Shown here one piece after another: positions 32,592 through 64,000 of a stretch of 64,000 nucleotides of DNA. The notes under the pieces were generated by a model that searched no databases, was not told the DNA's origin, and saw only the letters and a list, made by a program, of their open reading frames with translations. Origin of the DNA: Pontederia crassipes (Eukaryota > Streptophyta > Magnoliopsida > Commelinales > Pontederiaceae); contig CM060188.1 in assembly GCA_030549335.1 (NCBI GenBank), positions 6,634,001 through 6,698,000 on the forward strand, given 5' to 3'. Position 1 is the first letter of the stretch; the number at the start of each line of letters is the position of its first letter. Made by a program: the position numbers and the translations under genes.

Positions 32592-33434
32592 CACACTTCT
32601 CCCTTTCATCATTGGATCCTTCTCATTGTTTAAATAGTTCATTTTCACTCTTTTTATTTATATTAATATTTTTTATGCTATGCTCCAGTTTTTGATATGT
32701 TTTATTTATTTGTTAACTTATTTTCACATAAAATTATGTAAATATAAAAAATATTAGCACTTTTGATTAAAACAATACTATTCATATTTCGTGTTACATC
32801 TAAAGTTAGTAATTTTTTTTATTTTAGTAGTAATTTTATTATTCATCATTAATATTTTTTATTAAAATTTTTACTCTTAATTGTAGAAGTTATAGAAAAT
32901 TTTGCGCTCCATATTTTTATATTTTCTGACCAAGGGCAACACCTCTAGCAACACTTTCCCTCACTCACCAAATCCAACAAACAGATTCGAATCTCTTAAA
33001 AAATCTCAATAGAACTTCTCCCGCCGATAACTGCACACAGTGTCATCACCATCGCCAACTAGTCAAGACCTACTACCTGGTTCACGAACGAGTCGATCCT
33101 TCACTGCAAAATTAGTAAGATCATAGTTGGATATTAAAAAGATCCATTTTTTTTCCTCCATTAAATCCGACTCCGGTCCTCCTCCTGTTGTGTCTGCATT
33201 TGAGAATAAAAATAATAAAATATGGCAGGAAAAAGGAAAGAGAAGATCGAGAGAGCTGGTGAGAGATGGCCGGGGGAAGGAAAAGGAAGACACAGAGGAG
33301 AGATGATGCTGTCAGAGCTAAAAAGAATTGCATGCCTCAAGAACTCGCAACGTCGGGACGAGGTCGGCTTCTTGTGGCCAAGAGGCCCAAGATACAAAAC
33401 TGAGTTTTTTCAAGAAGTGTGCTTTGGGGAAGTT

Positions 33435-34285
33435 TGATGCTAATGTATGACTATTTTTATCATTTTCTATTATTTGTTAGAATTTGAAGGTTTCAAATTT
33501 CAAATATATTACTTTGTGAACATTGAAAAATGTGTTCATACTAATTAGTGAAGTATTAAATACAATATCACATCTTTTCATCAACGAAGTGTTATAATAT
33601 TGAATGAAAAGACATGGTCACATGTGTTATAAGTGAAATGGTGTCATGAATGAGTTATCTAATTAATGAAAAAATATTTTTAGATGAAAAGTTGTATCGC
33701 TTCATAAGTGAAAAGATATATTCACATTTGAATAAGTGTGTTCATATTTCAAGAGTTATATTCACATTTGAGTAGATGCATAATTTCATCTTAAGATGTT
33801 TCTTCATATGTGTTCACATACCAATACATGTGTTCTTTTATCATAAGGTGTGTCCTTATATGAAAAGAAATTAAGTGAATCCTTTCATTAATAGGTGTCT
33901 TTTGGACGAATAGACACTAGTCGCATCCCTTCATGAAGTACCATTTCAAGCGTATAAATAAACTTCCCCTTCTTGCATTTTTCATCAATAAAAAATAATT
34001 GAAAGCGATGAGAAGCAATGAACATATGATGAGTACTATATGTACAATACATGAAAATGCATTCAAGTTATTGCAAATTATTAGAATAAGAGATTGAGTT
34101 CTTCAACAGTTGTTAGTTAGCGAACTCGGTAACTTCGTTGTATCCTGAAAGTATTATTATCGTAAGTCCAATAGTAAACTTCATGTGGAGATAAATAATT
34201 CTCTAAAGATAGCAATCCATCGTGTCTCGAAGTCTTGATCTTCATTTCTTCTCTATCCATCTACCCAATATTTCCAACACTACTG
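33435..34285. mobile_element. Insertion in copy A exon 1/intron 1, LTR-like
   Basis: Copies B and C lack this ~0.85 kb. It is AT-rich, with many TTCACAT / TGTTCATA words, a TATA-like CGTATAAATAAACTTCCC near 33,948 and a TGTTAGAATTTG start at about 33,475. This fits a solo or partial copia LTR. No target duplication was found, and its ends are inferred from where similarity to copies B and C resumes. Confidence 0.4.
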
Positions 34286-35543
34286 GTGTTGTCATTGTTG
34301 TTTTATTGTCTTTTTTTATCGATCATTACTCATGTTATGCAAGTTTTTCTTTGTTGATGACTTCTGTATTCCTAAATGACAGTCATCTTCTGACAGAGGT
34401 TGTTGGAAGAGGTTGTTTCCTCGGAGGTTTCTCCTTTTTTTTCTGCTGGTGTAATCTAATTTATCAACAATGAACTTTGATCTGTTTAAGACTTTAATGT
34501 TTTCTGATTTGCACTAAAACTTTGATTTTTTGCCCCTATTGTGCTTTCTGATCATTGATGCATTCTGCATAAGGACTTATTTTCATTTACCTCTTTTCCT
34601 TTTTTGTCATCTTTCTTGTTCTTATTATGGACAATAGTAATCATAAGACTGATATTATCATGATATTTGGTAGGAACATTCTGATTGTATTAAACGTGGA
34701 ACAGATCTGAAAAAATGCAGGTTAATAAATCTGGTTAGGTGCACTCAATGTGTCAATGCATGATTCCTTAAATGACTATGTTAAGCTATTTTATTGATTA
34801 ATGCTTTCGAGCAGGATTAACAATCTTTATCCTGTGTTATATGATGCACTGCCATAATTAGTTTTCATTTGTGACATTGCAATAATTCTATAATTGTTCA
34901 TTCACCTTCTTAGTGAATTCAACAGGGCAATATGGTGGAATATACAATGTGTCACCAATGCCAGCGCAATGATAACGGAAGGGTAGCGTGCTGTTGCAAA
35001 GCTAAACACTACTGCATACCGTGCATAAAAGCATGGTATGCCTCCTTTTTATTTTGAGACCTTAAAAATTTCCAGAACTTGGAGTGATTTTCCATTGAAG
35101 GAGTAGGATTAGTGCCTTTATTATATATATGTAGATCTATTAGTCAATAATGTTGCTAACCAAGGCCTGTCTAAAGGGTTTGATATAGTGGCATGTATTG
35201 TTTATATTGTATGATTGTATGAGGTTGATAGATCTATTGCTTTTTCTTTCAGTACTTAGTAGCAATTATGATCTGGAGTTTTTTTTAACTTATTCAGTAT
35301 AAACTTGTGCTTAATTATTTGCCAAACAGTACACCAGTAATTTATAGGTTGCAGTTTATTATGTACTTAGCATAGTGATGTTAGCATGCAAATTGATTTA
35401 GGATTATGAATGCAAATTCTTCTTTTGACAAATTTATATAGAAAGAAATGATACATATCTTTTCACGCCATACTAAACACTACTTGCAGTAGGTATTCTT
35501 GATTGAGAAGTTAATAACTAACATTTTTAACTGGTTTCTAACT

Positions 35544-35844
35544 CCGCCTATATTTTATAGCCGGTCCCAAGCCCGGATAAAGGAGGAGGGTTGTGTTAGG
35601 CCCCGACAGCTAACATAAAATCATGTCGAATCTTATGAACATGGATCAACGATCAAATAATCTGGAGTCCGATTAAAAGAGGGAGAGGGAGGCCAATGCG
35701 GACACTTGGCGAACTAATAGAGCAAGATCTATTGGTGAATAATATACCGAAAGGTTTGGTTACTAATAGAGCGGAATGACGTCGTATGATCCATGTAGCC
35801 GACCCCACCTAGTGGGATAAGGCTTTGTTGTTGTTGTTGTTGTT
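35544..35844 (+). mobile_element. Short internally deleted RTE derivative in copy A intron 2
   Basis: The RTE 5' leader (CCGCCTATATTTTATAGCCG ... ATGGATCAACGA) is joined at about 35,652 to TCAAATAATCTGGAGTCC, about 190 bp before the end. It continues to GGCTTTG(TTG)n. The 3' part matches 7,118-7,302. At this position it keeps the TGG codon that is TAG in the long copy. Total length is about 300 bp. Confidence 0.9.
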
Positions 35845-36108
35845 ATGATGGTACAAATAGAAGAAGAACAATCAAGATAAAGCAGAGGAAACACTTCTCT
35901 TAAAGAATTGATTGGGCAAAGTATTCTTTGGTTACATGAGTTGAGCATAATATATGAAACATTGGTGCATCTTGATACAATGCACATGTCTAAAGAATGT
36001 ATCACAAAGTGTCCTTCGGCAACATTCAATATATTTTTTTCGAGCAATTACTCTTCCCAAAAGTCTTTCAGGTGTTTTAAAATTTTTCTCCATGACTTTT
36101 TTTTTTTT

Positions 36109-36258
36109 TTGTGATCCGCCTATATTTTATAGCCGGTAACTCCGCCTATATTTTATAGCCGGTCCCAAGCCCGGATAAAGGAGGAGGGTTGTGTTAGGCC
36201 CCGACAGCCAACATAAAATCATGTCGAATCTTATGAACATGGATCAACGAATTGTGAC
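36109..36258 (+). mobile_element. RTE 5'-leader-only derivative in copy A intron 2
   Basis: The first ~25 bp of the leader occur twice in tandem (36,116 and 36,138). The leader then runs to ATGGATCAACGAA (36,251), with no 3' part beyond a possible single TTG. The flanks TTGTGATC (36,109-36,116) and TTGTGACC (36,252-36,259) look like a target duplication. It split copy A's ancestral SINE from its poly(A)-side flank. Confidence 0.75.
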
Positions 36259-36424
36259 CAATGGGTATCGAATGGGCTACTATCTCCCCTAAATAATCCA
36301 ACCATGGGGCTGGAGCATTGAGGTTGGCCTCTCTCAAAAGTGGTAGTTCCAGGATTCAGACTTGACTCTCCTCATTGGGGTCGTAAGTGCTTAGTGCTTA
36401 CTCAATGAAACAGCCCTCTGTTGG
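36252..36424 (-). mobile_element. tRNA-derived SINE, copy A intron 2 (worn)
   Basis: It is homologous to the SINEs in copies B (42,836-42,997) and C (61,858-61,964): TGGGTATCGAATGGGCTACT, CTCCCCTAAATAATCCAACC and so on. It is the most diverged of the three. Its 3' side is separated from the tail by the RTE insertion at 36.1 kb. Confidence 0.7.
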
Positions 36425-39400
36425 TGATCACTCTCTGATTATCGTAGAGAAGATATTCACACTTGAACTAAAAAGATTTTCATTTATCTACATTGGTGCA
36501 TGTGATGAGGCAGTAGACTGGAATTTTGGTAATATGAATTTGGTATTAGCTTTGTACATCACATTGCCATCCAATGCTTGTTTATAATAAAGACACTGAA
36601 TATAGAAGGTTCATTAGATTGTCACTATTTGTATGAACTTATGTTGTGTCCCTGCTTTATCTGATTGAATGAGTGACATGGATAAAATGTCGATAACCCA
36701 ATAAACTTCAGTTGCATCACACATAGTTCTTTTCATCATTGTTCTTAAGTTTGTTTAACTTGAGATATGCTAAACATTCAGAATAAATAACCTTTTTTAA
36801 GTTTGTTGTATTCCTGTTAGGATTCTTTCCAACAGTTCAACAAATTATGATTGGACTTCTAAGTTTATGTACACTTTATGTTCTTATGTAAATTTTATCT
36901 CATTTATGCCGTGAAGGTACCCTCAAGCAGAGGAGGTATTTGCGAAGGCTTGTCCGGTTTGTCAACGCAATTGCAATTGTAAAGCTTGTTTGCATTTAGA
37001 TGGGAATTGTTTTAAAGTCAGTACATTTTTTACTATGCTTTTGTCTCAATTCATTCATTATTTCATGGTACTAAATTTCACTAGGGAGACTAATAAATTA
37101 ATAAATAAATTATTGCAGTATATGTTGGTATCAAACTTGACATTTAGCAATGATAAAAAGCTTCAATATTCACTCTATACTATTCGTTTCCTTCTTCCAA
37201 TTTTGATACAAATGAATGAAGAACAGATCTAAAAAATGGAAGCAGAGAGAAAAGGTAATATTTGTTTTGTTGTTTGCATTCGGTTGGACTTGGTTTAGAT
37301 TGTATGTCTGACCCAATTATTAAAAAATGGGCCAACCAGTGTCTCTTTTGGGAAACGGATATCTTATTATGCAGATGCTATAAATTGTGACATATGGTTG
37401 TATCATCTTCAAACCAGTATTCTTCAACATGCCTTATGATGTGCAACATTTGTGAATGTTTATTTCATACAACAATAGGAGACATTTGCATTAAATTGTA
37501 GTGTTACATCCCTTTAATGTATATGCTTGGATCAAATATTAGGTGAGAGAAGAGACTCAGAGTTGTTGCAGCTAATAGAAATTTTCTATATTTGCTGGTT
37601 CTTTATTCTATAATGCTAACAATTTTAGAGTTGACAGAAGATTTATGTTCTTTTTCACAGACTCTTACTCTAACAAAGGATTTTTTTTTGTATTTTATGT
37701 TCTAGATCTGTTGTTGTCAGATTTGGCAATTCAAAGAGTATAACTAACAAAGAAAGAATGTGCGTATTGATCTGGTGGACTTAACGAGTGGTTATCAATT
37801 TCTTAATCTTTTTATGCACGACTTTGCAATCTGAGCTCATACTTGTTTTTTTTTATATATGTTCAGCGACAACTGCACAACTTCTATTTTTGATATGGAC
37901 AAAATCTGCCCAAATTGTTCATATGAGATTTGCATTCCTTGCTGTCGGGAGCTGCGTGAGGGCCACTTACGAGTTGGTGAAAAGGAAGCAGTTGTAGAAT
38001 ATGTTGATAATGGTTTCGAGTATTTGCATGATGGGAAACCTCAAGCTAGAAGTACATCTCGGAATCATATAGTTGGATTTTGATTCCGACGAAAAAGATT
38101 TCACTGATTTTGAGAGTGATGACAGTTCGACATCAGAGTGGAAAGCAAATGAAGATGGCAACATTCCTTGTCCGAGAAAACTGGGTGGTTGTGGAAGTGA
38201 AATTCTAGAATTAAGGTGTATCTTAAATGAAAATGAGCTTTCAAATTTAGTAAGGAAATCTCAAGACTATGCCAATACCTACTTGAATGACATGCCTACA
38301 TCTTCTGGGAAAAAGTGCTCTTCTCTTTCTTGTGAAAGCATTGGTGATCTCCGTAGTAGCAATATGATAAAAGTAGCCTTCTGAGATAATACTGGAGACA
38401 ATTTTTGTATTGCCCACGGGCCTGAGAGCTTAAAGATGAAGATGTTTTACATTTCCGGTCCCACTGGGTCAAAGGTGAACCTGTCGTTGTAAGTGGTGTG
38501 CTAGAGACTACTTCTGGATTGAGCTAGGAGCCAATGGTCATGTGGTGTGCATTTCGTCAGATTTCAAATTGCAATCGTTCAGGCAATTGAATGTGATTGC
38601 AGTAGAGTGTTTGTCTAAGGTTGATGTAAGTTCAAATTACTTCATGTACTTTTCTTCATCTATCTAGGATTCTTGGCGACAATTTCAATACACATGCTAT
38701 CATTAGCTAACTTGTTCAAGTATTATGAATTGGCTTGTTCCACTAAGTTTAACGACAACCAACCTTTCGAGTTGTTTTGTTCAACTGCACTATTAGCAAG
38801 ATTTTATTGCAGTTTGAGGATTCTACATGAAGACTTTATGTGGTTCTTGTAGTAATTTTAATTGTGGTAATTGCATTTTGATTTTATTTTCCATGGTTTC
38901 AGGTTGACTTGTCACATGTATGGTGTGTTTCTTTCACGATTCTTCATCTCTCGCTAAATGTTTTGTAGGCTTATATTTACATTCACATATTCTTTGATGG
39001 CTACTCGAATGGTCTGTTCGATCCTTTTTTGCTCTAGAATCTAGAATTCAATCAACTACACAATTCTCGAGGTTTGGTGCACTTTGAAAATTTTTATTTG
39101 AAAAGAGCAATTTAAATTTGTGATAATTGCCTTATGTATGATCTGCTTCTTGTGCTCATTGTTTATCACTAATTCTTTGTGCAGGTTGATATAAATATTC
39201 TCGATTTCTTTGATGGCTACTCGGAAGGTTTGTATGATTATAAAGACTGGCCTCTTTTGTTGAAGTTGAACATATGATTCATTTGAGGAAAGATTATCAC
39301 ACCATGGTGTTGAATTTATCAGTTCACTTGCTTTTAAGGAATACACACTTCCTAACAGCGACTTTCTTAATCTTATTGCAAAATTGACCAGCATTTCAAA

Positions 39401-39444
39401 GTCAGACTTGGGACCAAAGGCATATGTAGCTTATGGGTTTCACC

Positions 39445-40386
39445 TAGTGGCGGAATCAGACATTTTAGTCACCGGATTCACAAATAATGATAACATTTTT
39501 AAAATTATTATTATTATAAAATATGAAGTCGCCATTATTTTTTTAAAAACAAAGCATTCACTGTATATATGATTATAAATGTTCATAGCCATTACAAGGT
39601 ATGGATTAGTGTTAAAAAGTATAAAATCCATCTTAAATATACTATCTCAATGAAGATTATTTTTTCAAGATATTTTATTTTACATGATTGATAATTATAT
39701 TGAAAATATTTTATAGTGAAAAAATATTTATAACTCTAAAATCAAATAATAAAATTTATTAAGTGTATAATATTTCATGTAAATGATTTTATATTAAGAT
39801 GATATAAATTTTAACATTTTGTCAAAAACTAGTTAACTCAAAATATTAGATGGGAGAAATTAAACTTTACAAAAGTAATTTAAATATGAAATAAAACAAT
39901 GAATGAAATGTAACATTTAACACGTATATTATTTATTGTGATTAAAAAAACTTTACATTTGGGTAAAGAATAAAATAAATTAAATGGTGAAAATTATAAA
40001 CATTTAGTTCAAGCTATGATATAAAATTTATCACTAATATAGGTAAGATGAATAATATTTACTATAACTAATGAAATGATATCACTAATATAAATGCCAT
40101 GGATAATATTTATTTTAATTAATAAAATGATATTATATAATGTGATAATAAAAAATAAGTAGTAAATATTATGAAGTTATAATTTAAGACAATAAGATAA
40201 AAGCATTTGTAAAGTTGAAAAATGAAAGAAAAAAATTGACTACCAAGAATCGACCTACTAACTTGCGGAGAATTTAAGCTAGTAAGCATAATTAGCCAAC
40301 TGAACAAATAATAACATGTGTTACTATATTTACATTCATTCTATTTATCTAGTGAGTGCACGTGCACTAGTGTGGCTCCACCACTA
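39445..40386. mobile_element. hAT-like element ending copy A
   Basis: The left end TAGTGGCGGAATCAGAC and the right end, inverted TAGTGGTGGAGCCACAC, are imperfect terminal repeats of plant hAT type. The ~0.94-kb body is AT-rich and has no transposase. No 8-bp duplication is visible, and the gene does not resume on the right, so a deletion accompanied or followed the insertion. Confidence 0.55.
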
Positions 40387-40855
40387 ATGCTTTCTTTCTT
40401 AAGAATATCGTAATCAATTACTAATTTAGTTAAAAAGTAAACCTTTGGATAGAATAAATATAATCTTACACCGGAGACCTTTCGTAGACTCGGGCCGGCA
40501 CAAACAAAAAAGACTAAATTAAACTAGAAGTGAAATAGTCAAATGTTTTTCAACAGCATTACTTCATCAAAATGATTTGATGGAATCCAAGCATTTGCCT
40601 CCAGATTACTCAAACTTTTCACTTCGTCACTTTATAATTTTTTTTGTTAAATTTGTTTATTATCTAGTTACATATTTAACCTTTATTAATATTTGGAAGA
40701 AAGATTTAAAACCTCCGGTGCTATTCTGTTTTTAGATATGTTTATTATATTATATGTTACCGTATCTGTCTTTATTTAACTCCATAAATCATGTTTCCCC
40801 GACATGCCCTCCCGACTTTTCTTTGCGTTTTGAGCATTCATTAAAAAAAGCTAAC

Positions 40856-40916
<61 letters not shown>

Positions 40917-40936: not shown

Positions 40937-41168
40937 ATGGCCGGGGGGAAGAAGAGGAAGAGCGACGACGCTGTCGGAGGCGGCCAAACTTGTGGCATTG
41001 TCTCAAAAACTCGCAATGCTGGAAGGTGGTCTCGCCAAAAACCGCAAGTTGAATGCCGAAGTACGATCGGAACTGCTACTGCTACTGTTTATTGTCGTTG
41101 TCGTTGTTTCTTTCTGTTACGCAGAATTTGTTTTGCTGATGACTTCTTCTTTCATTCCTACAAAAGAA

Positions 41169-41187
41169 GGGGGGGGGGGGGGGGGGG
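41169..41187. repeat. 19-G run in intron 1 of copy B
   Basis: An uninterrupted G run follows CAAAAGAA. Copy C has GAGGAGGAGGAGGGG here, so the run grew after duplication. Confidence 0.8.
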
Positions 41188-42070
41188 TGGGTGTTCAGAA
41201 AAGAGGTCTGTTAAAGGGTTTTGTTTCCCTGAGATGATACTTCAGTCGCTTGTTTCCTGATCAGCACCACTTCGCACTAATTAAAACTGTGATCTTTGTT
41301 CCTCTTATGCACCATCCTGTTCAGTAGTGAATTGTGCACCGTGTGAGGGTTCTATTTCTTCTTCCCTTTGTCCTTTTAATGCTCTCTTTCTTCTTCCTCC
41401 TCCTTTTTGAGTTTTATGGAGAATTAGCAATAATTACTTAGTATGATTTTTCATTAGGCTTCTGCAGCCTGGTTGGGTGTAGTCATGCAAGATTTTTTAA
41501 AATTGTTCGGCTCAGCTAGTTTGCTGATTAACGCTTTGAATAGGATTAATGCATTGCCACGATCACTTGGCATTTGTGATATTGTAAAATATTCTCTATC
41601 TGCTAAGTCACATTCTTAGTGAATTCGACAGCGGAGTCTGGTATGGCGGAATGCACAAATTGTCACCAGTGCAAGCGCAATGACAAAGGAATGGTAGTGC
41701 ATTACACACAATGCAGAAAGCTACGCTACTGCGTACGGTGCATAAAAGCATGGTATGTCTCTTTTTCTTGAGGACTTAGGAACAATCATCGTAGTTTGGA
41801 GGGAAAATGATGCGGTACAGTGGCATGTCTTATGCTTATGTTACATTGGTGGAGGTTGATAAAAACTGCAAGTATTTGATACTGTGTTGCTTTTTCTTTC
41901 AGATTCTGTTGTGATCAGGAGTGTTTTTTTAATTACTTGGAAATAAATCTTGCTTGGTCAACAGAAGAACAAGAATTTATCTGTTAGTGTTCACCCTTTA
42001 TTAAGGATTTGGTGGCAATAGTTCAGGAACTGAGTAGAACTATGAACCTGAATCATTCTTCTGATACAAT

Positions 42071-42177
42071 GCCTATATTTTATAGCCGGTCCCAAGCCCG
42101 GATAAAGGAGGAGGGTTGTGTTAGGCCTCGACAGCCAACATAAAATCATGTTGAATCTTATGAACATGGATCAACGA

Positions 42178-42213
<36 letters not shown>

Positions 42214-42270
42214 GTATGTATATAGCCGACCCCACCTAGTGGGATAAGGCTTTGTTGTTGTTGTTGTTGT
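42071..42270 (+). mobile_element. Short internally deleted RTE derivative in copy B intron 2
   Basis: The RTE leader up to ATGGATCAACGA is joined through an expanded (TA)n / GTATGTATA tract (42,178-42,222) to GCCGACCCCACCTAGTGGG and (TTG)n. It has the same 5' breakpoint as the copies at 20.6, 35.5 and 36.1 kb. Copies A and C lack it here, so it postdates the duplication. Confidence 0.88.
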
Positions 42271-42835
42271 ATATATGTATGTATATATAACAATTTTTCT
42301 TAATGACATAGCAAATATTACTTAATATAAGTACTCTTAAAAGGGAAGTTGGTAACATAAGTTTTTTCACTAGACAAAGATCATACAAATAGAAGAAAAA
42401 TAAAACTGGGGCAGAGGAAGTGCTCTTATTATAAAATTTTTGCTAGGCATGTTATAGCAGAATTCTCACACTGAAATGCTTGGTACTTTTGATGAACCCA
42501 ATTAAGCCAAATATGGTATGAGAGGACAAATATTTTAATTTTTAACCAATCTATCCAGAAATATCCGAAGTCACTTTTCAACAATTCAATTCTCCATTAT
42601 AAATTACAAGTATTACCCCCAATAGGAAAAAGAAAGTGAAAGTTCTTCTGGCATGTATGCAATATTTATACTTGATGTAGCGCAATTAACATTCTATTGA
42701 CTTGTGACTTGTGCTGACAAATGAAACCTATATGTGCCCTAATGCAATAGACATGTCTAAATCAAGTCTTACTAAGTATTATTCAGTAACATTCAATATA
42801 TTTCTTTCAAGTGAATATTTCATGATGACTTTTTT

Positions 42836-42997
42836 GGTGACCGATAGTATCCAGGGGCTATTAGCTCCCCTGACTAATCCAGCCTATGGGGTAGAACACT
42901 AAAGATACTCCTGCGGTCCTGCCCGACGGCAGCTTCGGGGGTATTTGAACTTGGATCTCCTCGCAGGTCTTACCCATTGAACTAACCTAGTGTTGGT
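42836..42997 (-). mobile_element. tRNA-derived SINE, copy B intron 2
   Basis: On the minus strand it begins with a tRNA-like head: A box TAGTTCAATGG, B box AAGTTCAAATACC about 30 bp later. It ends in a short A tail. Flanks GATGACTTTTT and GATTACTTTTT (about 42,824 and 42,998) fit a target duplication. The same insertion is present in copies A and C. It is transcribable by RNA polymerase III in principle; activity is unknown. Confidence 0.78.
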
Positions 42998-43556
42998 GAT
43001 TACTTTTTGATTATGCAAAGCAGATACTAATACTTGAACTATTTAATATATCTAGATGATGCATGTGATGATGTAGGATATAAGATTGCTACTATTTGTT
43101 AATCTGAATTTGGTATTAGCTTTCCTTCAATTTTTTGCTTCTTCATATATCATGATACCATCCAGTTTTTTGTTATGATGAAATTCATGGAAGATGGAAC
43201 GCTTTGCTTGATTAGATTGTCACTAGTTGACCTTACGCTTCATCTGTTTGAACGAGTGTTCTTGTTAAAATGTTCATAACTCAATAAACTTACATTGTAT
43301 CACACACTGTTTTTTCATTTATAGTTCTGGAGTTTGTTTAAGTTGAGATATGCTAAAACAACTAAACATTTGGAACAAGTAGCCTTTTAAATTTGCTGTA
43401 TTTCTGTTAAGATTCGTTCCAATAGTTATTAAAATTGTAATTAGACTTCTAACTCTATGTACCTCAATCATGTTTGCTGTGAAGGTATCCTCAGTCAACA
43501 GAGGAGGCAATTGCAAAGTCTTGCCCAGTTTGTCAACACAATTGCAACTGTCTGCG

Positions 43557-43690
43557 TTTGGATGGGCGAATTAAATTTAGTTGATTTGTTTTTCTGTTTT
43601 TGTCACAGTTCATTTTTTTACTAACATTTGGATGGGCGAATTAAAGTCAGTTTATTTGTTTTTCTGTTTTTGTCACTTCATTTTTTATCG
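43557..43690. repeat. Tandem duplication at the exon 3 / intron 3 border of copy B
   Basis: A ~70-bp unit starting TTTGGATGGGCGAATTAAA occurs twice (43,557 and 43,627). The GT donor (TTAAA|GTCAG) survives only in the second unit, while the first reads TTAAATTTAG. Copy C has one unit with a normal donor (TTAAA|GTAAAT). Proper splicing of exon 3 in copy B is therefore doubtful. Confidence 0.85.
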
Positions 43691-43978
43691 TGAGTAGAAT
43701 TTTCATAGGAAAACTTATAAATTGACAAAAACATTATTGCAGAGATTGTTGGAATCAAAATTGGCATTTAGTAATGATGAAAAGCTTCGATATTCTCTCT
43801 ATACTCTTCATTTCCTAATTCCAATTTTGAGACAAATGAGTGAGGAACAGATTTTAGAGAAAAGGATGGAAGCACAAAGAAAAGGTAATACTTGCTTTGT
43901 TGTTTGCATCAGTTGGATTTGATTCAGAATTTCAGATTATATGGTCTGACCCAATTTTTTTTAGAAAAGGAGTCAATA

Positions 43979-44159
43979 TGTAAGGCCCCAAGGTGAAGGG
44001 ACCAAAGAGTGAAGAAAGATATTCCCACATGGGCAAAACACGGAGGTGGTCATGGGCTTATAAGTGGCATCCTCCTTTACCTATCAAGACGCATTTTAAA
44101 TTCGTGCGGGTCTTCGGCCCGAAGCGAACAGTATCTTGATGGAGTCAGGGGGTGTTACA
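43979..44159 (+). repeat. TRIM 5' LTR
   Basis: It is 181 bp, starts TGTAAGGCCCCAAGG and ends GGGGGTGTTACA. It pairs with 50,526-50,706. Confidence 0.92.
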
Positions 44160-44221
44160 AATGGTACCAGACCCATCCTCGCTTGCTCACTTGAATTATG
44201 TGAGAACGAACCCGGCCCACG

Positions 44222-45125
44222 TGTCACAGCCTAATTTCTCTCCTAGAAATTAGATGCAACCGGCCTTGAAGACTCCTCACCGAATCACTCAAGCAGCCTC
44301 CCTGTTCTCTCTGATTTTTCCTCTCAAAGAAGAACTCGCACCCACTCTTGAACTCACACTTAGTTTCTTATCTAAGTCAACACACTCACACACAATGCAA
44401 ACATAAGAGAACTCGGCCAATGAGGGAAGAAAACATTCATTAACACTTGTCCCAGAATGTGGGAACCTTACATGTATTTATAGTGTCTTGGATCAGCCAA
44501 CTGCTGTCCAGAATTTGAATTCAAACCATTCAATTCAAATTCAAATGTCAACCATAACTACCTAATACATAACTTCTAATCCAATGGCCAGGATCTTCCC
44601 ATCACCTTGATTGAAGTTCCTGCCTTCAGGATTACTTCCCTCCATCATAGGACATGCCTTGGTGGACTCCGGCCACCAAGATTCTGGCGCGGCCACCTCC
44701 TGCCCGCCGGCCATGGCCGCCATGGCGGTTACAACCGCCACCTCTTCATTGCCTTCCTTCCAGAGACGTCTCCACGCCTGCTCCTTCAAGACCAATGAAC
44801 TCCTGCGACCTCCACATGCCTGATGATGCTCTAGGATGGTCTGGTTCGGTCCTGGGACGACATGTCCCAGAATGGCCCGGGCGCACCCGGCCATGTGCAC
44901 CCGGCCATGTCATATGGCTCCGCCAGGTTCCGGCCATCCTCTGAGTCCCATCTTCTGCACCAAGCTTCCTGGTTGATAAAGAAGTCCCGAGATGTGCTCT
45001 CCAGTCCCTGGGATGTCTCGGCTCATCCCATGGATGCTCATGGCCGCCATGTGCACCCGGGCGCCCAGGGCGCGCCCGGCCATGCTCGGCCATGCCCCGA
45101 AGCCCTCCACTCATGGAGGGTGACA
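44222..45125 (-). repeat. LTR of the young gypsy element (3' LTR on the minus strand)
   Basis: It is 904 bp. On the minus strand a likely TATA region (ACTATAAATACATG) lies near 44,475, beside the CAATTCAAATTCAAATG tract. Confidence 0.93.
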
Positions 45126-49541: not shown

Positions 49542-49577
49542 GTTGCAAAGGTTGAAGAGGGGCTCTGATACCACAAC

Positions 49578-50481
49578 TGTCACAGCCTAATTTCTCTCCT
49601 AGAAATTAGATGCAACCGGCCTTGAAGACTCCTCACCGAATCACTCAAGCAGCCTCCCTGTTCTCTCTGATTTTTCCTCTCAAAGAAGAACTCGCACCCA
49701 CTCTTGAACTCACACTTAGTTTCTTATCTAAGTCAACACACTCACACACAATGCAAACATAAGAGAACTCGGCCAATGAGGGAAGAAAACATTCATTAAC
49801 ACTTGTCCCAGAATGTGGGAACCTTACATGTATTTATAGTGTCTTGGATCAGCCAACTGCTGTCCAGAATTTGAATTCAAACCATTCAATTCAAATTCAA
49901 ATGTCAACCATAACTACCTAATACATAACTTCTAATCCAATGGCCAGGATCTTCCCATCACCTTGATTGAAGTTCCTGCCTTCAGGATTACTTCCCTCCA
50001 TCATAGGACATGCCTTGGTGGACTCCGGCCACCAAGATTCTGGCGCGGCCACCTCCTGCCCGCCGGCCATGGCCGCCATGGCGGTTACAACCGCCACCTC
50101 TTCATTGCCTTCCTTCCAGAGACGTCTCCACGCCTGCTCCTTCAAGACCAATGAACTCCTGCGACCTCCACATGCCTGATGATGCTCTAGGATGGTCTGG
50201 TTCGGTCCTGGGACGACATGTCCCAGAATGGCCCGGGCGCACCCGGCCATGTGCACCCGGCCATGTCATATGGCTCCGCCAGGTTCCGGCCATCCTCTGA
50301 GTCCCATCTTCTGCACCAAGCTTCCTGGTTGATAAAGAAGTCCCGAGATGTGCTCTCCAGTCCCTGGGATGTCTCGGCTCATCCCATGGATGCTCATGGC
50401 CGCCATGTGCACCCGGGCGCCCAGGGCGCGCCCGGCCATGCTCGGCCATGCCCCGAAGCCCTCCACTCATGGAGGGTGACA
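49578..50481 (-). repeat. LTR of the young gypsy element (5' LTR on the minus strand)
   Basis: It is 904 bp and looks identical to 44,222-45,125 by eye. The primer-binding site follows on the minus strand at 49,561-49,573. Confidence 0.93.
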
Positions 50482-50525
50482 CACGGGCCACTCAACGAGG
50501 ACGTTGAGTTCCTTAGGGGGGTGAT

Positions 50526-50706
50526 TGTAAGGCCCCAAGGTGAAAGGACCGAAGGGTGAAGAAAGATAGTCCCGTATGGACATAACACGGAGGTGGTCAT
50601 GGGCTTATAAGTGACATCCTCCTTTACCTATCAAAACGAGTTTTAAATTTATGCAGGCCTTCGACCCAAAGCGAACAGTATCTTGACGGAGCCAGGGGGT
50701 GTTACA
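50526..50706 (+). repeat. TRIM 3' LTR
   Basis: It is 181 bp, preceded by the purine tract TTAGGGGGGTGA and followed by the CAATA target duplication. Confidence 0.92.
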
Positions 50707-53700
50707 CAATATGTGTTCAAGAAAGATAGGTGTTGAATTGTACTGCAACATGTCTTAGATGTATGTGATTGGATCAAATACTAAGAGAAGAGACTTGGAG
50801 TTGTTGCGACCAGTAGAAGTTTTTTATTATGTTGACAATGCTATAATGTGAAAAAAGTTTAGAGTTGTCAGAAGATTTATGTTTTTTCATTTAATTCTTA
50901 TTCTAAATAAAAAGGCAAGGTTCAACATTGCAGTTGGCAAAGTCCCTGTTTTCTTTAATTTTGGTACTTCATTTTGCAGAGCTGCCTTTGTCAGATTTGG
51001 TTATTCGAAGAGTAGATCTATGTGAGGAAGAAAGTGCTTACTGGTACCATGGACTTAATGAGTGATTATTGCTTCTTTTTTATCATTTTATGCATGACTG
51101 TGCTAATACCTTTTTTTATGTTCAGTGACAATTGCACAACTTCTATTTTTGATGTGCACAGAAGCTGCCCAAACTGTTCATACAATTTATGCATTACTTG
51201 TTGCCTCGAGCTGCATGAGGGACACTTACAAGGTGGCAGAGAGGAAGCAGTTGTGAAATACATTGATAATGGATTTGAATATTGGCATGGTGTGAAACCT
51301 CAAGCTAGCCAGAATCATGCAATTGATTCTGGTGAAAAAGTTTCCATTGATTCAGAGAGTGATGACTGTTCAGCATCGGAGTGGAAAGCAAAAGAAGATG
51401 GTAGCATTCCTTGACCTCCAAGAAAACTGGGTGGTTGTGGAAATGGCCTTCTAGAATTGAGATATATCCTTCCTGACAATGAAGTTTCAGATTTAATAAG
51501 AAAGTCTGAAGACTATCTCAAAACCTACTTGAATGTCATACCTACATTTTCTGCGCAAGAGTGTTCTTGTCTTCCTTCTCAACCTAATAGTAGCAATATC
51601 ATGAAAGCAGCCTTTCGAAATAATAGTGGAGGCAACTATTTGTATTGCCCAAGGTCTGGAGAGCTTAAATGTGAAGATCTTTTACATTTCCAATTCCACT
51701 GGGTCAAAGGTGAACCTGTGGTTGTAAGTGATGTGCTAGAGATGACCTCTGGATTGAGCTGGGATCCAATGGTCATGTGGCGAGCAGTTCGTCAGATTTC
51801 AAACCATAAGGGTTCACTCCTGGATGTGACTGCAGTTGAATGTTTGACAAAGGCTGGGGTAAGTTTAACTAACTTCTTTACCACTTTTCCTCACTTATCT
51901 TGGATTCTTGGCAAAATCCTTACTTACATTAGGCAACTTGTCAATTATTACTCTTTGGTGGAAGCATAATGCTGATATTGGTTTTCTGCACTACTTTATT
52001 TTCCTAGAATCTAGAAATCGATCAACTACACAATTCTCGAGGTTTGGTGCTGTTTGAAAAAAATTGATTTGAAAAGAACAATTTAAATTTTTGATAATTG
52101 CCCTATATATGATCTGCTTCTTCGTTGCTCATTGTTTATCACTGGTTCTTTGTGCAGGTAGTTATTAATATTCACAATTTCTTTGATGCTACTCAAAAGG
52201 TCTGTATGATTATAAAGAGTGGCCTCTTTTGTTAAAGTTGAAAGATTGGCCTCCATCTAATTCCTTTGAAGAAAGATTGCCACGCCATGGGTTGGAATTT
52301 ATTAGTTCGCTTCCTTTCAAAGAATACACACATCCTAGGAGTGGCTTTCTCAATCTTGCTGTCAAATTGATTGGCACCTCAAAGCTTGACTTGGGACCGA
52401 AGACATACATTGCATATGGGTTTCACCAAGAGTTGGGACATGGGGATTCTGTGACAAATCTTCATATTGACATTTCTGATGTTGTATGTATACCATTTAA
52501 CCATTCCAGCTCGTCCATCTTTTCCTATTTCTTATATCTACTTGAATACATCCCTCAAAAAATAAACTCTGAATGGTTTGGCAATATTTCGTATGTTTTC
52601 TTTGTCTAGCAACATCAAATAACAGCGCATAACTGTTTGTGATTACTAAAGTAATGTTGTTGGTTCAAAATCTTGTGTTTTTTCATTTTCTATTTCTTTA
52701 TTGGAGATATGAATTAGAAAGATTATTACAGCCATATATTGATGGATTTGGCATTCTGTATGTTTCACTCTTTTTAAACATAAGCTTAGTTATAATGAAC
52801 TTCTCCAAAATTGGTCACTTCTCTTTCTTTCTACTTTTGCTATATTTTTTTTTTCATGGTGAATTGAAACAAAATCAATTATTTCTCTTTTCCATTTGGC
52901 ATTCCATTTCAGCATGAATTGAAACAAAATCAATTATTTCTCTTTTCCATTTGGCATTCCATTTCAGCATATAGTTTACAACTTCACAGCATCAAAATGC
53001 GTGCAGATTAAAATGCAGGCAGATTGAAAGCATCCATTTCATGAAACTAGTGCTAGACTGTGACATGAGTTAACAACTGCAACGATATTTATATTTTTTT
53101 ACTTGATTAAATTCATCGAATTTCCTTATTCTTTTTCAGATAAATGTTCTGACACACACAACAGAAGTTAAGCTTAGTAATAAGCGGCTGGCAGTCATAG
53201 AAGAATTAAAATTACAGCATGCCATTCAAGATCAGATTGAACTTTATGGTAAGGAGATGATGGGGAAAGAGGATGTGCAGGGCGTGACAGGTATGTCTAA
53301 GGAAGAGATATTAGATGCTGCATCTGCAATAAACAAGGAGCGCTGCATAATGTCGGAAAGTAAAGCCCAAATTGATGTTGATGCTAATGATGTTCAGAAT
53401 GGCAAGAAGAAAAAAGGATCATCACATGGCCCTCGAAAAAGCAAGAAATGCACTTCTAATGCATATTCTCACAATCACTGCTCTCCCAGGACTTCTGAAA
53501 ATGAAACAAGGCCAACTACCAACCAAGATGAGGAGATTATAGCACCTTCTTCACTTTCAAGTTCAGAGGATGATGCAGAGGGAGCTGCCTTGTGGGACAT
53601 ATTTAGGAGGGAAGATACTCTTAAGTTGCAAGATTATCTTATGAAGCACTATGGGGAATTCAGACATACCTATTGCTCTCCAGTCACCAAGGTTTTGGCT

Positions 53701-55235
53701 GTTGACTATAATCATGATTTCCATTCGATTTGTTGCATTAAAATCATGAAAATATTGATGCTTGCTATTATTTTCATTGTTGTTAGAATTATCGTATTTT
53801 GTAAAAATATTTAGGTATTACAATATATGACATATTGTAACATTAAAATATTTTCTTTGTTGAATACACAAATCATAATAATAAAAAGAACTCATTTAAT
53901 TATTATTTCTCTAAATTCATTTGATCCAACAGATTCTAATTTATTGTTGATTATGCATTTTCTGTCCATGAAACAGGTCATTCATCCAATTCATGATCAG
54001 ATCTTTTACTTGAATTCAGAACATAAAAGGAAATTCAAAGAAGAATATGGTTTGTTAACAATTGGTTACCTGTGATCTGAATTGGGGCGTTAATTTATCT
54101 TTCTTTTAACATGACATAGTGCAGGAATTGAGCCATGGACTTTTGTCCAAAAGCTTGGTGATGCTGTCTTCATTCCTGCTGGCTGTCCACATCAAGTCAG
54201 AAATTTGAAGGTCCTTATTAATTTTTGGTGAAGAAAAATAATTTTTTTATTGTACCAGAATTCTTTCTTATAGGAAAGATAAAACAACAATGATGAATGA
54301 GTACTAAATCATGTTTTCTTATGATAAATATAGAATCATCTGTTTTTTCTTGATTTCTCCAGAGGAATGTGACAGCTATATCTCCTAGATTAGTTGTTTC
54401 ATCTGCAATTATAAAGATTTATTCTCTCTCTCAAAAAAATAAAGATTTATTCTTATTTTATCATATTTATTTGTTTTTCATCAATTAGCGAGGTGTTCTG
54501 GGACTAATCTTGTTATGTTCATGTAGTTACTTTGTGTCTAATAGAATTTTATTTGTTCCACTTTCCATGCCTTGCCTCCAGTCATGCATAAAAGTGGCTC
54601 AGCGCTTTGTCTCGCCAGAAAGTGCCAAAGTTTGCATTCTCTTAGCTGAGGAATGTCGTGTTCTTCCTACAAAACATAGATCAAACAAAGATAAATTGCA
54701 GGTACATATGGGGTTATTCATTCGTATTGTTTGCTCATTCATGTTAATGTTCTGTCAAGCTTCTACATGGCATGCCACCCCCACCTCCGCTGTATTGACT
54801 GGAAGCTAATTGTGTTGTTTATTTCTGTGTAGTCCTAACTGTTACAAAATCGTTATTGTCAATGTACCATTGCATCTTTCCATCACAAAAGGATTTGGCA
54901 TTTGAGCTCATGGTGTCCTTGGTGTTGTATACTCTCTACAATATTTCGCATCTTTGTGTCTTATATTTAATGGTTGATTGTGTTTCTGATGCTGGATTAT
55001 ACTTCACAAGGCCAATGTTTTTTTGCACTAAAATCATATGCGTCCACTTTGCTGATGCACCCATTTCCTAAAGTTCATGCCATGTCATGCACATTTGTGT
55101 CTGATTTTAACTACTGCTACAGTTTTACTAGCAGTTTCATTTGGTCTTAGTTCTTTGGCAAGGGTTGTTTTGGGTACTGACTTCCTAGTCCGAGTGGATG
55201 TGTTATGTTATCTAAGACCTAGATATGTTTTACAT

Positions 55236-55389
55236 ATGTACTATTTGATTACTTTAAAGATGGTAAACAAATTCTTCTGGCTTAACAGTATCATATCAGA
55301 ATTGATGTGACCATGTACTATTTGATTACTTTAAAGATGGTAAACAAATTCTTCTGGCTTAACAGGATCATATCAGAATTGATGTGATC
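55236..55389. repeat. 77-bp tandem duplication in intron 11 of copy B
   Basis: Two units start ATGTACTATTTGATTACTTT (55,236 and 55,313) and differ at only a few bases, so the duplication is recent. Confidence 0.88.
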
Positions 55390-55611
55390 ATGTACATCTG
55401 AATGGTTTTGTTTTTTATGTTTCTTTTTTCTCTCATATTACGCGATCTGTTTAAGAACAATAAGGAGCGCAGACTATCATCGTTCAAATGCTTGCATAAT
55501 TTTCTTTTTTTTTATCTCATGCATCATGTAAAATGGAATTATTTGAAGCCTGAACAATCTTGTACTTCTCTTGAACAGGTAAAGAAGATGATTGTTCCTG
55601 CAGTGAAGCAA

Positions 55612-55749
55612 GCTGTTGAGTTTCTTGGATCAAGCCAAACAATGCATTTCTGAGTTATTTTGCTCTAACATTGTATTTTAAAAAACATGTTACATGTGTC
55701 TCTAGATCAAGCCCAAAAATATATTTTTGAGTTATTTTGCTCTAAAAGG
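55612..55749 (+). repeat. Duplicated end of copy B: last-exon tail repeated in the 3' flank
   Basis: The end of exon 12 and the first bases of the 3' UTR (GATCAAGCCAAACAATGC ... GAGTTATTTTGCTCTAA, 55,627-55,669) recur about 80 bp on (GATCAAGCCCAAAAATAT ... GAGTTATTTTGCTCTAA, 55,706-55,747). The second copy has lost the coding sense of the first. Confidence 0.7.
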
Positions 55750-59170: not shown

Positions 59171-60372
59171 GGGAGATTTGGGAGCAGCACTCCCGTTAAA
59201 TATTTTTAAAAATATTTACTGACTTATTAATTATGTCGTTAATTATAATTTAAAACACCTAGATTCATCAATGTCTTTCTGTATAATTTATCGTGATTAT
59301 AATGAATAATCATATTTTCGATAATTCATTTCGTCGCAATATTGTTTTTTTAGCATCATCAATTTTTTTACTCCAATTTAATGGAAGATGCTTCGGATAG
59401 TATAATTCTTGTCAAAATCTTGGGCTGATTTGGGTCAACTCCTTGTCCATCTTCTGGCTTATGTCGCCTTTAAAATTTTAATGTAACCTCTCTCTTAGGA
59501 TATATTTATTCTATTCTTTGAAGTTAGCAATCAATCTTTTTTATGGTATACAAAATATTATATGATGTCAAACTAAAACAATCCTATAATAAAAGTAAGC
59601 CAAAATTTAGAATAGAAGTTATATATACATCCAAGTTGACTTTGGATAGAAGCGACTCTCGACATGAATCGAAACCTTAGTTAGATTCATGTCCAATCCC
59701 ATGTATACATCAGAAGATTAACTATAGAAATACGTGAATATCCTCTGAATTATAATTAAACACATATTTTATTTATCAAAAAGTACAAAAGATAGATTTG
59801 TTATTTTTAACAAAATTAATTTTATAAATAGTAAAGAGTTGAGAGTTATCATAATTTTTTTAAAAGGTAGAATACAAATATGCGATGCAAACTTAAAAAA
59901 ACGACTAATCCGATGAAATGTGTCTTAGTCCCATGTATTTTTAATCTCCCTCAAAATGACATCCAAGAGTCTAAATCTCTTTACTCCATTCCAAAAAAGC
60001 ATATTATTATCATTTTTTAATGTGAATAATATATATTTTTATTTTTTTCTAATAAAATAGAGTGAGAGTAATATTTTTGAGTCAATAATAATATCACGCT
60101 TTAGTCTTTGCTAATTCCACGTGTCGAAGCCTGCGGCGCGCTTCCTCCGAATCGCACACAAATTTGGTTAATTTCTTGGATGCATAAATATGTTACCGTA
60201 TCTATCTTTAGTTGCGCCATAAATCCTGTTCCAGTCCACGACCTCCCGAGTCAGCCCGCTCTGCATCGCGTTTCAGCAGCGAGCGGTAGAAAACATAAAC
60301 AGGCCAGAAGAGAGAAGAGAACAAAAAGAGGAAAAAAAATAAATTAAAAGCTTCGTTCTTGATCGAGAAAAG
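59171..60372 (+). promoter_or_regulatory. Spacer and upstream region of copy C
   Basis: AT-rich spacer to about 60,100 is followed by the promoter-proximal block shared with copy B (TATGTTACCGTATCTATCTT, about 60,190; CCATAAATCCTG) and a GA-rich leader (60,300-60,372). No other feature was recognised. Confidence 0.45.
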
Positions 60373-63300
60373 ATGGGCAGGGGGAGGAAGAGGAAGAACG
60401 GCGACAGGGACGTAGCTGCCGGAGGCGAGCAGACGTGTGGCATTGCCTCGAGAACTCGCAATACCGGAAGGGGGTTTCGCCAAGAAGCGCGAGTTGAATG
60501 CCGAAGTACGATCGAAACTGCTGTTGCTACTGTTTATTGTTCTTGTTGTCGTTTTTTTTTCCTTTCCGTCCTGCAGAATTTGTTTTGCTGATCACTTCTT
60601 CCTTTGTTCCTACGCAAGAGAGGAGGAGGAGGGGTTGGGGTTTAAGGAAAGGGGTCTGTTAAAGGGTTTTTTTTCTTTGGGATGACACTTCAGTCGCTTG
60701 TTCCCTGATCAGTACTACTTTGCAGTAATTGAAACTGTGATCTCTGTTCCCCTTATGCGTCGTCCTGCTCAGTATTGATTTATGCACTGTCAAAAGGGTT
60801 CTATTTCTGTTTCCCTTTTTCGTATTGGTGCTCTCTTTCATTCTTCTTCTTTTTCTTCTCCTTTTTAGATTTTTTGGAGAATTTGCGATCATACTAATTA
60901 ATATGACCTTCATATTCTGACATGCTTCTGCAGCCTGGTTAGGTTTAAGTTAGAGCAGGAGCTGCTCATATTAGTGTTTTCGAGTGTTGCTTCAAATTTT
61001 CGTACTTCTACTGAAAATAATGCATGCTAATATATTGGTTAGGGACTTAGGGGTACACATGCAAGGTCTGTTATAATGCGTTCATCTATTTGCTGATTAA
61101 TGTTTTTTAATAAGATTAACAATCTTTATCCTGTGTTGAATGATGTGTTGCCATGTTTAGTTTACATTTGTGATATTGTAATAAATTCCGTATATGTTAA
61201 TTCACCTTCTTAGTGAATTCGACAGAGGAGCCTAGTATGGCGGAATGCACAAATTGTCACCAGTGCAAGCGCAATGATAAAGGAAGAGTAGTGCAATGCA
61301 CAGCCTGTGGAAAGCTACGCTACTGCCTACACTGCATAAAAGCATGGTATGTCTTATTTTCATGAGGCCTTAGGAACAAATATCACAGTTTGTTGGGTAA
61401 AGGGAAGGGTTTAATGTAGTGACATGTCTTATGCTTATGTTACATTGGTGGAGGTTGATAACTGCAAGTATTTGATATTGATATTTAATAACTGCAAGTT
61501 ATAGCATAATTCTCGCACTGGAATACTATGGTATTGTTCTGGCACTTTTAATAACCCAGATAAGATGAATATGGTACATGAGAGGACAAATGTTTTAGTT
61601 TAATCAATCTATCTAGACATATTACCCCAATAGGAAAAATAAAGTAATAATTCTTCATTCTTCTCACATGTATGCAATATTTGTACTCGATGTGGCGCTG
61701 TTAACATTCTATTGAGTTGTGACTTGTGCTGACAAATGAAACCTCTATGTGCCTGATGCAATCTGTATGTCAAAACCACGTCGCACAAAGTAAATGCTGT
61801 AACATTCAGTATATAATTTACGTGATTTAACAAGTGAACATTCCATGATGACTTTTCTGGTGACCAATGGTATCCAGGGGCCATTAGCTCCCCTGACTAA
61901 TACAGCCAAGGGATCTCCTTGGCGGGTCCGAAACATTTACCCATTGGACCAACCACATGCTGGTGATTACCATTTGATTATGCAGAGCAGACATTTGTAC
62001 TTGAACTATTCCATTATATCTAAGCTGGTGCATGTGAGGAAGTAAGATATAACATTGCTAATATTTGTTAATCTGAATTTGTTATGAGCTTTCCTTCATT
62101 TTTTTTTCTTTGTATCTCACGTTGCCCCAATTTTTGGTTATAATTAAATTCATTAAAGATAGAACAATTTGGTTCATTAGACAGTCACTAGTTGCATGAC
62201 CTTACGCCATATTGCCCTGCTTTATCTGTTTGAATGAGTGTTCTTGTTGAAATGTTGATAACTTGTTAAACTTGTACTATATCACACACTGTTTTTTTCA
62301 TCTATAGTTCTGCAAATTGTTTAATTTGAGATATGCTAAAACAGTTAAACATTCGGAATAAGTAGCCTTTTAAATTTTGTTGCATTCCTGTTGGGATTCT
62401 TTCGAATAGTTATTAAAATTCTTCTTCTCAAAAAAAAAAAGTTATTAAAATTCTAATCAGTCTTCTAACTTTATTTACCTTAATCATGTGTGCTGTGAAG
62501 GTATCCTCAGTTAACAGAGGAGGCAATTGCGAAGTCGTGCCCAGTTTGTCAACACAATTGCAACTGCAAAGCTTGTCTGCGTTTGGATGGGCGAATTAAA
62601 GTAAATTAATTTGTTTTTTCTGTTTTTATCAAAGTTCATTTTTTATCGTTAGTAGATTTTCATAGGAAGACTTATAAATTGAAAAAAACATTATTGCAGA
62701 AATTTTTGGAAACAGAATTGAAATTTGATAATGATGAAAAGCTCCGATATTCGCTCTATACTCTTCATTTCCTTCTTCCAATTCTGAGACAAATGAATGA
62801 GGAACAGATTTTGGAGAAAAAGATGGAAGCACAAAGAAAAGGTAATATTTGCTTTGTTGTTTGCATCCAGTTGGATTTGGTTCAGACTGTATGGTCTGAC
62901 CCACTTGTTAAAAAAAAGAGTCAATCTGTGTTTAAGAAATAGAGGTGTTAAATTATGCAACATGTCTTAGATGAATGTGATTGGATAAAATATTAAGAGA
63001 AGAAACTCACAGTTGTTGCAACCAATAGAAAATTTCTTTGTATATTGACAATGTTTACTATAATGTGAAATATTTGAGTTGTCAGAAGATTTATGTTCAT
63101 TTTCATAGAACGCATACTCTAAATACGAAGCATTGCATTTAGCAAAGTCCATTTTTTGTTTCATTTTGGCAATTCATATTGCAGATCTGCCTTTGTCAGA
63201 TTTAGTGATTCGAAGAACAAATCTAAGTAAGGAAGAACGTGCTTATTGGTATGACAGGCATAATGGGTGATTATTACTTTTTTTTATCTTTTTATGCATG

Positions 63301-64000
63301 ATTGTACTAATATGTGTTTTTATGTTCAGCAACAATTGCACAACTTCTATTTTTGATGTGCACAGAAGCTGCCCAAACTGTTCATATGATTTGTGCATTA
63401 CTTGTTGCCGGGAGCTGTATGAGGGCCACTTACAAGGTGGTGGGGAGGAAGTAGTTGTGGAATACATTGATAATGGACTTGAATATTGTCATGGCGGAAA
63501 ACCTCAAGCCAGAAGTACGTCTCAGAATGATATTGTTGATTCCGGTGAAAAAGTTTCCGTCGATTCTGAAACTGACGACTGCTCAGCATCGAAGTGGAAA
63601 GCAAATGAAGATGGCAGCATTCCTTGCCCTTCAAAAAAAATGGGTGGTTGTGGAAATGGACTTCTAGAATTGAGGTGCATCTTTCCTGACAATGAAGTTT
63701 CAGATTTAATAAGAAAATCTGAAGACTATGTCAAAACCTACTTGAATGACATGCCTAGATCTTCTGAGCAACAGTGTTCTTGTCTTTCTTCTCAACCTAG
63801 TGGTAGCAATATGATGAAAGCAGCCTTCCGTAATAATACTGGCGACAACTATTTGTATTGCCCAAAGGCCCGAGAGCTTAATTGTGAAGATCTTTCACAT
63901 TTCCAATTCCACTGGGTCAGAGGTGAACCCGTAGTTGTAAGCGATGTGTTAGAGATGACTACTGGATTGAGCTGGGAGCCAATGGTCATGTGGCGTGCAG
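60373..64000 (+). CDS. JMJ25-like (KDM3/IBM1-type) JmjC histone demethylase, copy C, 5' part
   Basis: This is the best-preserved copy; the gene runs past the window end. Exons: 60,373-60,505; 61,226-61,346; 62,501-62,600; 62,700-62,841; 63,185-63,248; 63,330 to beyond 64,000. All junctions are GT-AG with matching phases and no stop. The N-terminus is basic (MGRGRKRKNG). A RING-like zinc finger follows (CHQCKRNDKGRVVQCTACGK, then CPVCQHNCNCKACLR), then a helical LRYSLYTLHFLLPIL segment, a second Cys cluster (CNNCTTSIFDVHRSCPNCSY, then LCITCCREL) and the start of the JmjC region (HFQFHWVRGEPVVV, LSWEPMVMWRA). The catalytic HxD...H residues lie beyond the window; copy B shows what they should look like. 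By family knowledge the protein would act in the nucleus, using Fe(II) and 2-oxoglutarate to demethylate H3K9me1/2 and keep genes from being silenced. The start codon was chosen because exon 1 then joins exon 2 in frame, as in copy B. Confidence 0.9.
61858..61964 (-). mobile_element. tRNA-derived SINE, copy C intron 2 (partly deleted)
   Basis: It is homologous to the copy B SINE, with the same flanks (GATGACTTTTC, GATTACCATTTG). The middle (the B-box side, CCGAAGCTGCC region) is partly deleted, leaving about 107 bp. Confidence 0.72.

Follow-up and report, generated by a model that had tools for sequence, protein, structure and literature searches.

How did three copies of one chromatin-regulator gene come to lie side by side in Pontederia crassipes, and which of them can still make an enzyme? 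The question is raised by a 64,000-nucleotide stretch, here called the window (contig C6:6634001-6698000 of a 1.13-Gb genome in 43 contigs), where a gene of the KDM3/JMJ25 type recurs on one strand. With a probability of about 85%, we read the locus as a tandem array of considerable age, derived from a single plant KDM3/JHDM2 gene by DNA-level duplication and now in staged decay, in which copy C is constrained. The copies were located by self-BLAST of the window and by tblastn with the copy C protein over 154 kb (window coordinates throughout, unless a contig is named).

33266-39447, plus strand: copy A, truncated pseudogene with exons 1-6 and most of exon 7
40937-55653, plus strand: copy B, full-length pseudogene with 12 exons
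60373-67208, plus strand: copy C, intact gene

Nucleotide matches between the copies reach 1,275 bits, and chance is no issue. The original prediction, made from the window alone, had described three tandem copies in one orientation (one truncated, one full-length but damaged, one open) in a transposon-rich region. This description stands, as A ends in exon 7, B carries lesions, the frame of C is uninterrupted, and transposons lie in and around the array. The prediction had also counted the same 12-exon gene three times, which is right for B and C and wrong for A, where only exons 1-7 are found.

The model of copy C was built by hand from the sequence and checked by translation.

60373-60505, 61214-61346, 62501-62600, 62700-62841, 63185-63248 and 63330-64000, plus strand: exons of copy C inside the window, the last running on past its end

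Whether the gene is complete had been left to the sequence past 64,000. When this was read on for 3.2 kb, copy C proved complete, with 12 exons, 2,556 nt, an uninterrupted frame of 851 amino acids, a stop at 67208, and GT-AG borders in 11 of 11 introns. Its JmjC domain scores 53.2 bits (curated cut-off 24) and its zf-4CXXC_R1 domain 28.1 bits (curated cut-off 22.7). Among proteins of solved structure, human KDM3B and JmjC demethylation protein 2C are the best relatives, out of 7 distinct sequences with E up to 0.01. In the alignment with KDM3B (6rbj), LHVD of copy C falls on LHLD and CPHQV on APHQV; we take the HxD and the distal H of these motifs to be iron ligands of the active site. Exon number agrees as well, since six of the seven grapevine VvJMJ members of this group have 12 or 13 exons (the other has six), and these genes likewise combine JmjC (cupin) and zf-4CXXC_R1 domains (PMC12465334). 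We thus identify copy C as a plant KDM3/JHDM2 (JMJ25-type) gene. Judged by its family, it very likely acts as an H3K9 demethylase of transcribed genes, as does its paralogue on contig C16.

This paralogue was found by searching the whole genome with 243 amino acids of the exon 6 frame as protein and 3,701 bp of copy C as DNA, the resulting counts being lower bounds. The protein search returned at least 16 matches from 18 scored candidates, five of them in the array. The remaining listed matches lie at C16:62.45 Mb (68% identity), on C17, on C21 (three), and one each on C1, C2, C16:21.5 Mb, C15, C10, and C9. The gene at C16:62.45 Mb is open, with 12 exons and 896 amino acids; 595 of 849 aligned residues are identical to those of copy C, and the acceptor of exon 2 differs. 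Downstream of both genes and on the same strand lies a second shared gene, at 6.707 Mb on C6 and 62.526 Mb on C16, with 80% identity across about 290 bp; by motif it is presumably Pin1-like. Because this gene is present at both loci, the C6 and C16 blocks look syntenic, and we infer, on the thin evidence of two genes, that a whole-genome duplication gave rise to them.

Copy A has lost its 3′ part, ending inside exon 7 with exons 8-12 absent. Nonsense codons interrupt exon 5 (one) and exon 6 (three), the frame shifts in exons 2, 6, and 7, and the donor of exon 5 is gone. In total there are about ten separate lesions, a count that leaves out the forced alignments at exons 1 and 8 and at the 3′ end of exon 7. 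Exon 1 was located by eye at 33266, and a sensitive search matched the same place; it is long, as in the C16 paralogue.

Copy B retains all exons. An apparent absence of exon 12 was rejected as an alignment artefact, the exon being present at 55579-55653.

40937-41060, 41620-41752, 43485-43575, 43743-43884, 50980-51043 and 51126-51858, plus strand: exons 1-6 of copy B
52158-52483, 53140-53691, 53977-54049, 54125-54210, 54582-54701 and 55579-55653, plus strand: exons 7-12 of copy B
43557-43686, plus strand: tandem duplication of about 62 bp across the end of exon 3 and its donor
51412-51414, plus strand: nonsense codon in exon 6, TGC in copy C and TGA in copy B
52187-52189, plus strand: 1-bp deletion in exon 7, a frameshift

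The nonsense codon and the frameshift precede the JmjC core, so that B as assembled cannot make a demethylase; neither A nor B has an open frame through the JmjC domain. Exons 1-2 of B are open in frame, with a zinc-finger Cys changed to Tyr in exon 2. In exon 3, a 9-bp deletion upstream of the duplication takes out the zinc-finger K-A-C, and the first donor of the duplication is changed with the second unit still reading GTCAGT. Copy C is the sole assembled member of the array able to make a demethylase. The 'amplified' demethylase family of the original prediction is hence too strong a term, as neither A nor B, as assembled, can yield the enzyme, and the second intact gene, the C16 paralogue, lies outside the array. 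The link that the prediction drew between a role in opposing silencing and the transposon-rich surroundings is likewise no more than a proposal.

Duplication at the DNA level is seen from the introns. As had been predicted, they align, introns 3-6 at 79-92% between B and C, 71-81% between A and C, and 74-82% between A and B. Unequal exchange had been proposed as the source of the array. Duplication of genomic DNA is borne out by the introns; the exchange itself is not, and a sensitive search upstream of the start codon found no homology reaching more than 3 bp out between A and B or C. B and C do have a 64-bp upstream piece in common (B 40752-40815 and C 60188-60249). In view of this match, we rejected the idea that B was born without a promoter, which had been suggested by the first self-BLAST, where B-C homology began 17 bp before the start codon. 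Neither the 40 kb upstream nor the 50 kb downstream yielded the fourth copy that the prediction had raised as a prospect (tblastn with the copy C protein, E up to 0.01). No further C6 locus stands among the matches listed in the two whole-genome searches, which a remnant without the query parts could escape.

Synonymous divergence, whose calculation had been proposed, was computed by the Nei-Gojobori method. dS (synonymous substitutions per synonymous site) is 0.25 for B-C (806 codons), 0.43 for A-C (454 codons), and 0.46 for A-B; with the C16 paralogue, it is 0.60 for C (849 codons), 0.57 for B, and 0.48 for A. At a rate of 6.5e-9 per site per year, taken from rice (PMC6881317), B and C would be about 19 and A and C about 33 million years apart, although the true rate for the present species may differ.

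A tree of exons was built from five sequences (1,435 columns, 200 bootstraps). It joins B and C at 88% and A, B, and C at 61%, and a grouping of A and C that excludes B is rejected by the approximately unbiased (AU) test (p 0.0009). The exons thus place B and C as sisters, and the introns agree.

Selection was compared by polarising substitutions with the C16 paralogue and applying the Fisher test to synonymous and nonsynonymous counts. B has 45 synonymous and 86 nonsynonymous changes against 48 and 47 in C (p=0.020; nonsynonymous to synonymous rate ratio, dN/dS, 0.50 for B and 0.26 for C), and A has 37 and 94 against 45 and 54 in C (p=0.008; dN/dS 0.64 for A and 0.30 for C). Copy C is therefore the more constrained in both contrasts.

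Some results weigh against an array formed within the C6 block that decayed in the order A, B, and they concern the place of A, the constraint on B, and the single haplotype. As to the first, neither a tree with A outside C16, B, and C (AU p 0.31) nor one with A beside C16 (AU p 0.26) is rejected by the exons. With these alternatives standing and A, B, and C joined at only 61%, A could predate the C6-C16 split. It would then be what is left of a tandem pair that existed before the C6-C16 duplication, the C16 block having later lost its partner, and only B and C would be later duplicates. The lower dS of A-C16 than of C-C16 (0.48 against 0.60) and the long exon 1 that A has in common with C16 point the same way. 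The introns, however, point the other way. The share of gap-free intron columns that differ is about 22% between A and B/C and 38% between A and C16, and A groups with B/C in 2000 of 2000 bootstraps (396 columns), a result that assumes a rough clock. We regard an older A as unlikely. The finding that was to refute the original prediction, copies that are not one another's closest relatives, did not arise. B and C are sisters; A joins them less firmly, by intron sequence, as exons alone do not settle whether it branched before or with C16.

As to the second, the contrast between A and B, over the roughly 445 codons common to both, is not significant (37 synonymous and 86 nonsynonymous changes in A, 44 and 63 in B, p=0.097; dN/dS 0.59 and 0.36). 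The B branch departs from neutrality (p=0.0003) and the A branch does so weakly (p=0.029). Because neither branch is neutral, both copies were constrained during part of their lives, and B may have been functional over a large share of its existence.

As to the third, the assembly has to be considered. In six locus pairs, on C1/C2, C7/C8 (two), C9/C10, C11/C12, and C15/C16, identity is mostly near 97% (93-98% by piece), which suggests a haplotype-resolved assembly; a seventh pair, C14/C6, is 78-88% alike. The array has no partner locus at about 97% among the matches listed in the whole-genome searches. A hemizygous array was considered and rejected, as a gene about 6 kb past the end of copy C is equally without a partner (four matches listed, the best other at 80%), so that the other haplotype was probably just not assembled. 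The second haplotype of the region was thus not found in the assembly, and the array is known from one haplotype. With the lesions of A and B known from this assembly alone, they might be errors in a repeat-rich region. We give this hardly any credence, since the separate lesions of A number about ten and five of its exons are missing, and the excess of nonsynonymous changes along the branches to A and to B amounts to many substitutions, unlike isolated errors.

Part of the history of B is recorded in its intron 4, which holds one transposon inside another.

43979-50706, strand not assigned: TRIM (terminal-repeat retrotransposon in miniature) with two 181-bp terminal repeats and TG..CA ends
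44222-50481, minus strand: Ty3-type long terminal repeat (LTR) element of 6,260 bp, nested in the TRIM and antisense to B

The TRIM, split by the Ty3 element, has terminal repeats at 43979-44159 and 50526-50706 that are 89% identical, and is flanked by a 5-bp target duplication, CAATA. Its family is dispersed, with at least 87 matches from the best 40 of 1,551 candidates. The Ty3 element has 904-bp LTRs without any difference, a target duplication CACG, and on the minus strand a 1,491-amino-acid gag-pol frame in the order gag, protease, reverse transcriptase, RNase H, integrase. From 0 differences at 904 sites (95% bound, rate 6.5e-9), it would have inserted less than about 0.25 million years ago.

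A second record lies elsewhere, where the DNA search with copy C matched C10:18.1077 Mb.

C10:18107050-18111031: copy of a long interspersed nuclear element (LINE) carrying a tripartite chimeric retrocopy as a 1,733-bp insert

Among the 39 other LINE copies listed (the best 40 of 6,740 candidates), the insert is absent from 37, where 3 bp separate the two LINE parts, and two copies (C13:2.03 Mb and C16:57.60 Mb) show a rearrangement at this position. The DNA search with copy C listed no match on C9, the partner contig. The first part of the insert consists of 11 nt of exon 3 fused exactly to exon 4, followed by intron 4 as far as B 50842, with the TRIM and without the Ty3 element. In the second part, two exons of a gene on C5 are fused with precise splice-site junctions, one matching at 98.8% across 81 bp and the other at 99.4% across 494. 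After 12 bp without an assigned source comes the third part, 325 bp matching C11 (98.5%), which ends in a LINE-like 3′ tail. The insert has no target-site duplication; instead, 3 bp of the host LINE are missing.

Both the JMJ and the C5-gene parts thus carry the splice junctions expected of a retrocopy. Exon 4 of the insert is identical to B at 139 of 142 positions (97.9%) and to C at 127 of 142; the right part of intron 4 is identical to B at 132 of 136 (97.1%) and to C at 112 of 133; and the stretch holding the TRIM is 93.8% identical to B. Transposon capture of DNA was rejected because intron 3 is absent at an exact junction. A trace of a more distant lost copy, suggested by 92% over 840 bp, was rejected because the gene parts are 97-98% identical to B. 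From the spliced exons 3 and 4 and this identity, there must have been an RNA, either of B or of an allele of B that is not in the assembly, from which intron 3 had been removed, so that B or this allele was transcribed recently. As the insert has the TRIM and no Ty3, it formed after the TRIM insertion and from a source without Ty3.

This RNA, with exons 3 and 4 spliced and much of intron 4 kept, allows another view of B, namely that it serves as a non-coding gene or as one for a truncated protein, with a transcript that ends in intron 4 or gives a short product with the zinc finger only. The partial constraint on its branch and the open frame of exons 1-2 would fit. However, the Cys-to-Tyr change, the K-A-C loss, and the damaged exon 3 donor would break such a product, and the template of the retrocopy may simply have jumped in intron 4. 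We find a working B improbable.

In the staged decay that we favour, the ancestral locus, syntenic with the single-copy C16 paralogue, was duplicated into A and a B/C ancestor and then into B and C, presumably by exchange; the sequences show these duplications, less firmly for the place of A. A would have decayed first, losing its 3′ part. B would have kept partial constraint and later lost coding capacity, with B or its allele still transcribed and partly spliced; C remains complete and constrained. In intron 4, the TRIM came first and the very young Ty3 element later, after the retrocopy had formed, for which the anatomy of the insert suggests LINE machinery copying B-like RNA with template jumps.

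Could B still influence its relatives? As a transcribed pseudogene, it might receive antisense readout from the Ty3 element toward exons 1-4, which could pair with RNA of B and give rise to small RNAs that tune C and C16. Exact 21-mers of B exons occur in the coding sequence of C (243 of 2,279) and of C16 (76 of 2,279); within exons 1-4, which the Ty3 readout would reach, the counts are only 39 and 11 of 410. We consider such regulation very improbable. If true, small RNAs from B would act as a brake, itself sensitive to silencing, on a gene whose product presumably takes silencing marks away.

The surroundings contain further repeats. At 5051-7302 lies a LINE, presumably RTE-like by motif, with an open 717-amino-acid frame and a reverse transcriptase (RT) domain. 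Its family was recently active, as 37 further copies among those listed are 98-100% alike to the C10 copy. Direct repeats of 2.7 kb at 8443-19837, 90% alike, resemble the LTRs of a large and older element and enclose RT-like fragments. A block at 25246-30279, containing an F-box-like gene (28563-29735, named by eye), recurs at C6:6622057-6626935 (86-92%) and near C6:6.13-6.14 Mb, so the region duplicates other genes locally too. Downstream of the array, at 95419-113461 on the scale of the window, protease frames, presumably subtilisin-like by motif, are repeated at least three times in one orientation. A tRNA scan found 0 genes, and a Pfam search with single exons gave 0 families for four pieces.

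Tandem arrays of such genes are ordinary in plants, and tandem duplicates of IBM1 are already published. As in the present array, a plant H3K9 demethylase gene is tandemly duplicated in Brassicaceae (Boechera stricta, Capsella rubella), and IBM1 is duplicated in 19 of 34 species with methylomes (PMC11265718). Those duplicates differ in intron methylation and expression (PMC11265718). They number two per species, whereas three copies are found here, two of them pseudogenes as assembled. The likeness is drawn at the level of the KDM3/JHDM2 family, 'JMJ25-like' being the name used in the original prediction. The accessible parts of the grapevine (PMC12465334) and birch (PMC8555302) surveys report no tandem JmjC duplicates, and an apple survey reports few tandem pairs, counting the JMJ and PRMT families together (PMC11165092). 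For the C10 insert, a tripartite chimeric pseudogene of Magnaporthe grisea is alike in fusing several RNAs in one insert (PMC2104539). Unlike that case, the host here is a plant, one part derives from a partly spliced pre-mRNA of a present-day pseudogene with a TRIM, and the insert lies within another LINE copy. What appears new is the C10 retrocopy, with its indication that B or its allele was transcribed recently.

The weight of the locus is modest. It offers a clean series in which the same gene can be seen at three stages of decay, with an intact syntenic paralogue for comparison, and the nested insertions together with the retrocopy give the order of events within a dead copy. They also show that a chromatin-regulator pseudogene, or its allele, was transcribed, and the locus is suited to asking how heterochromatin in introns affects duplicated KDM3 genes.

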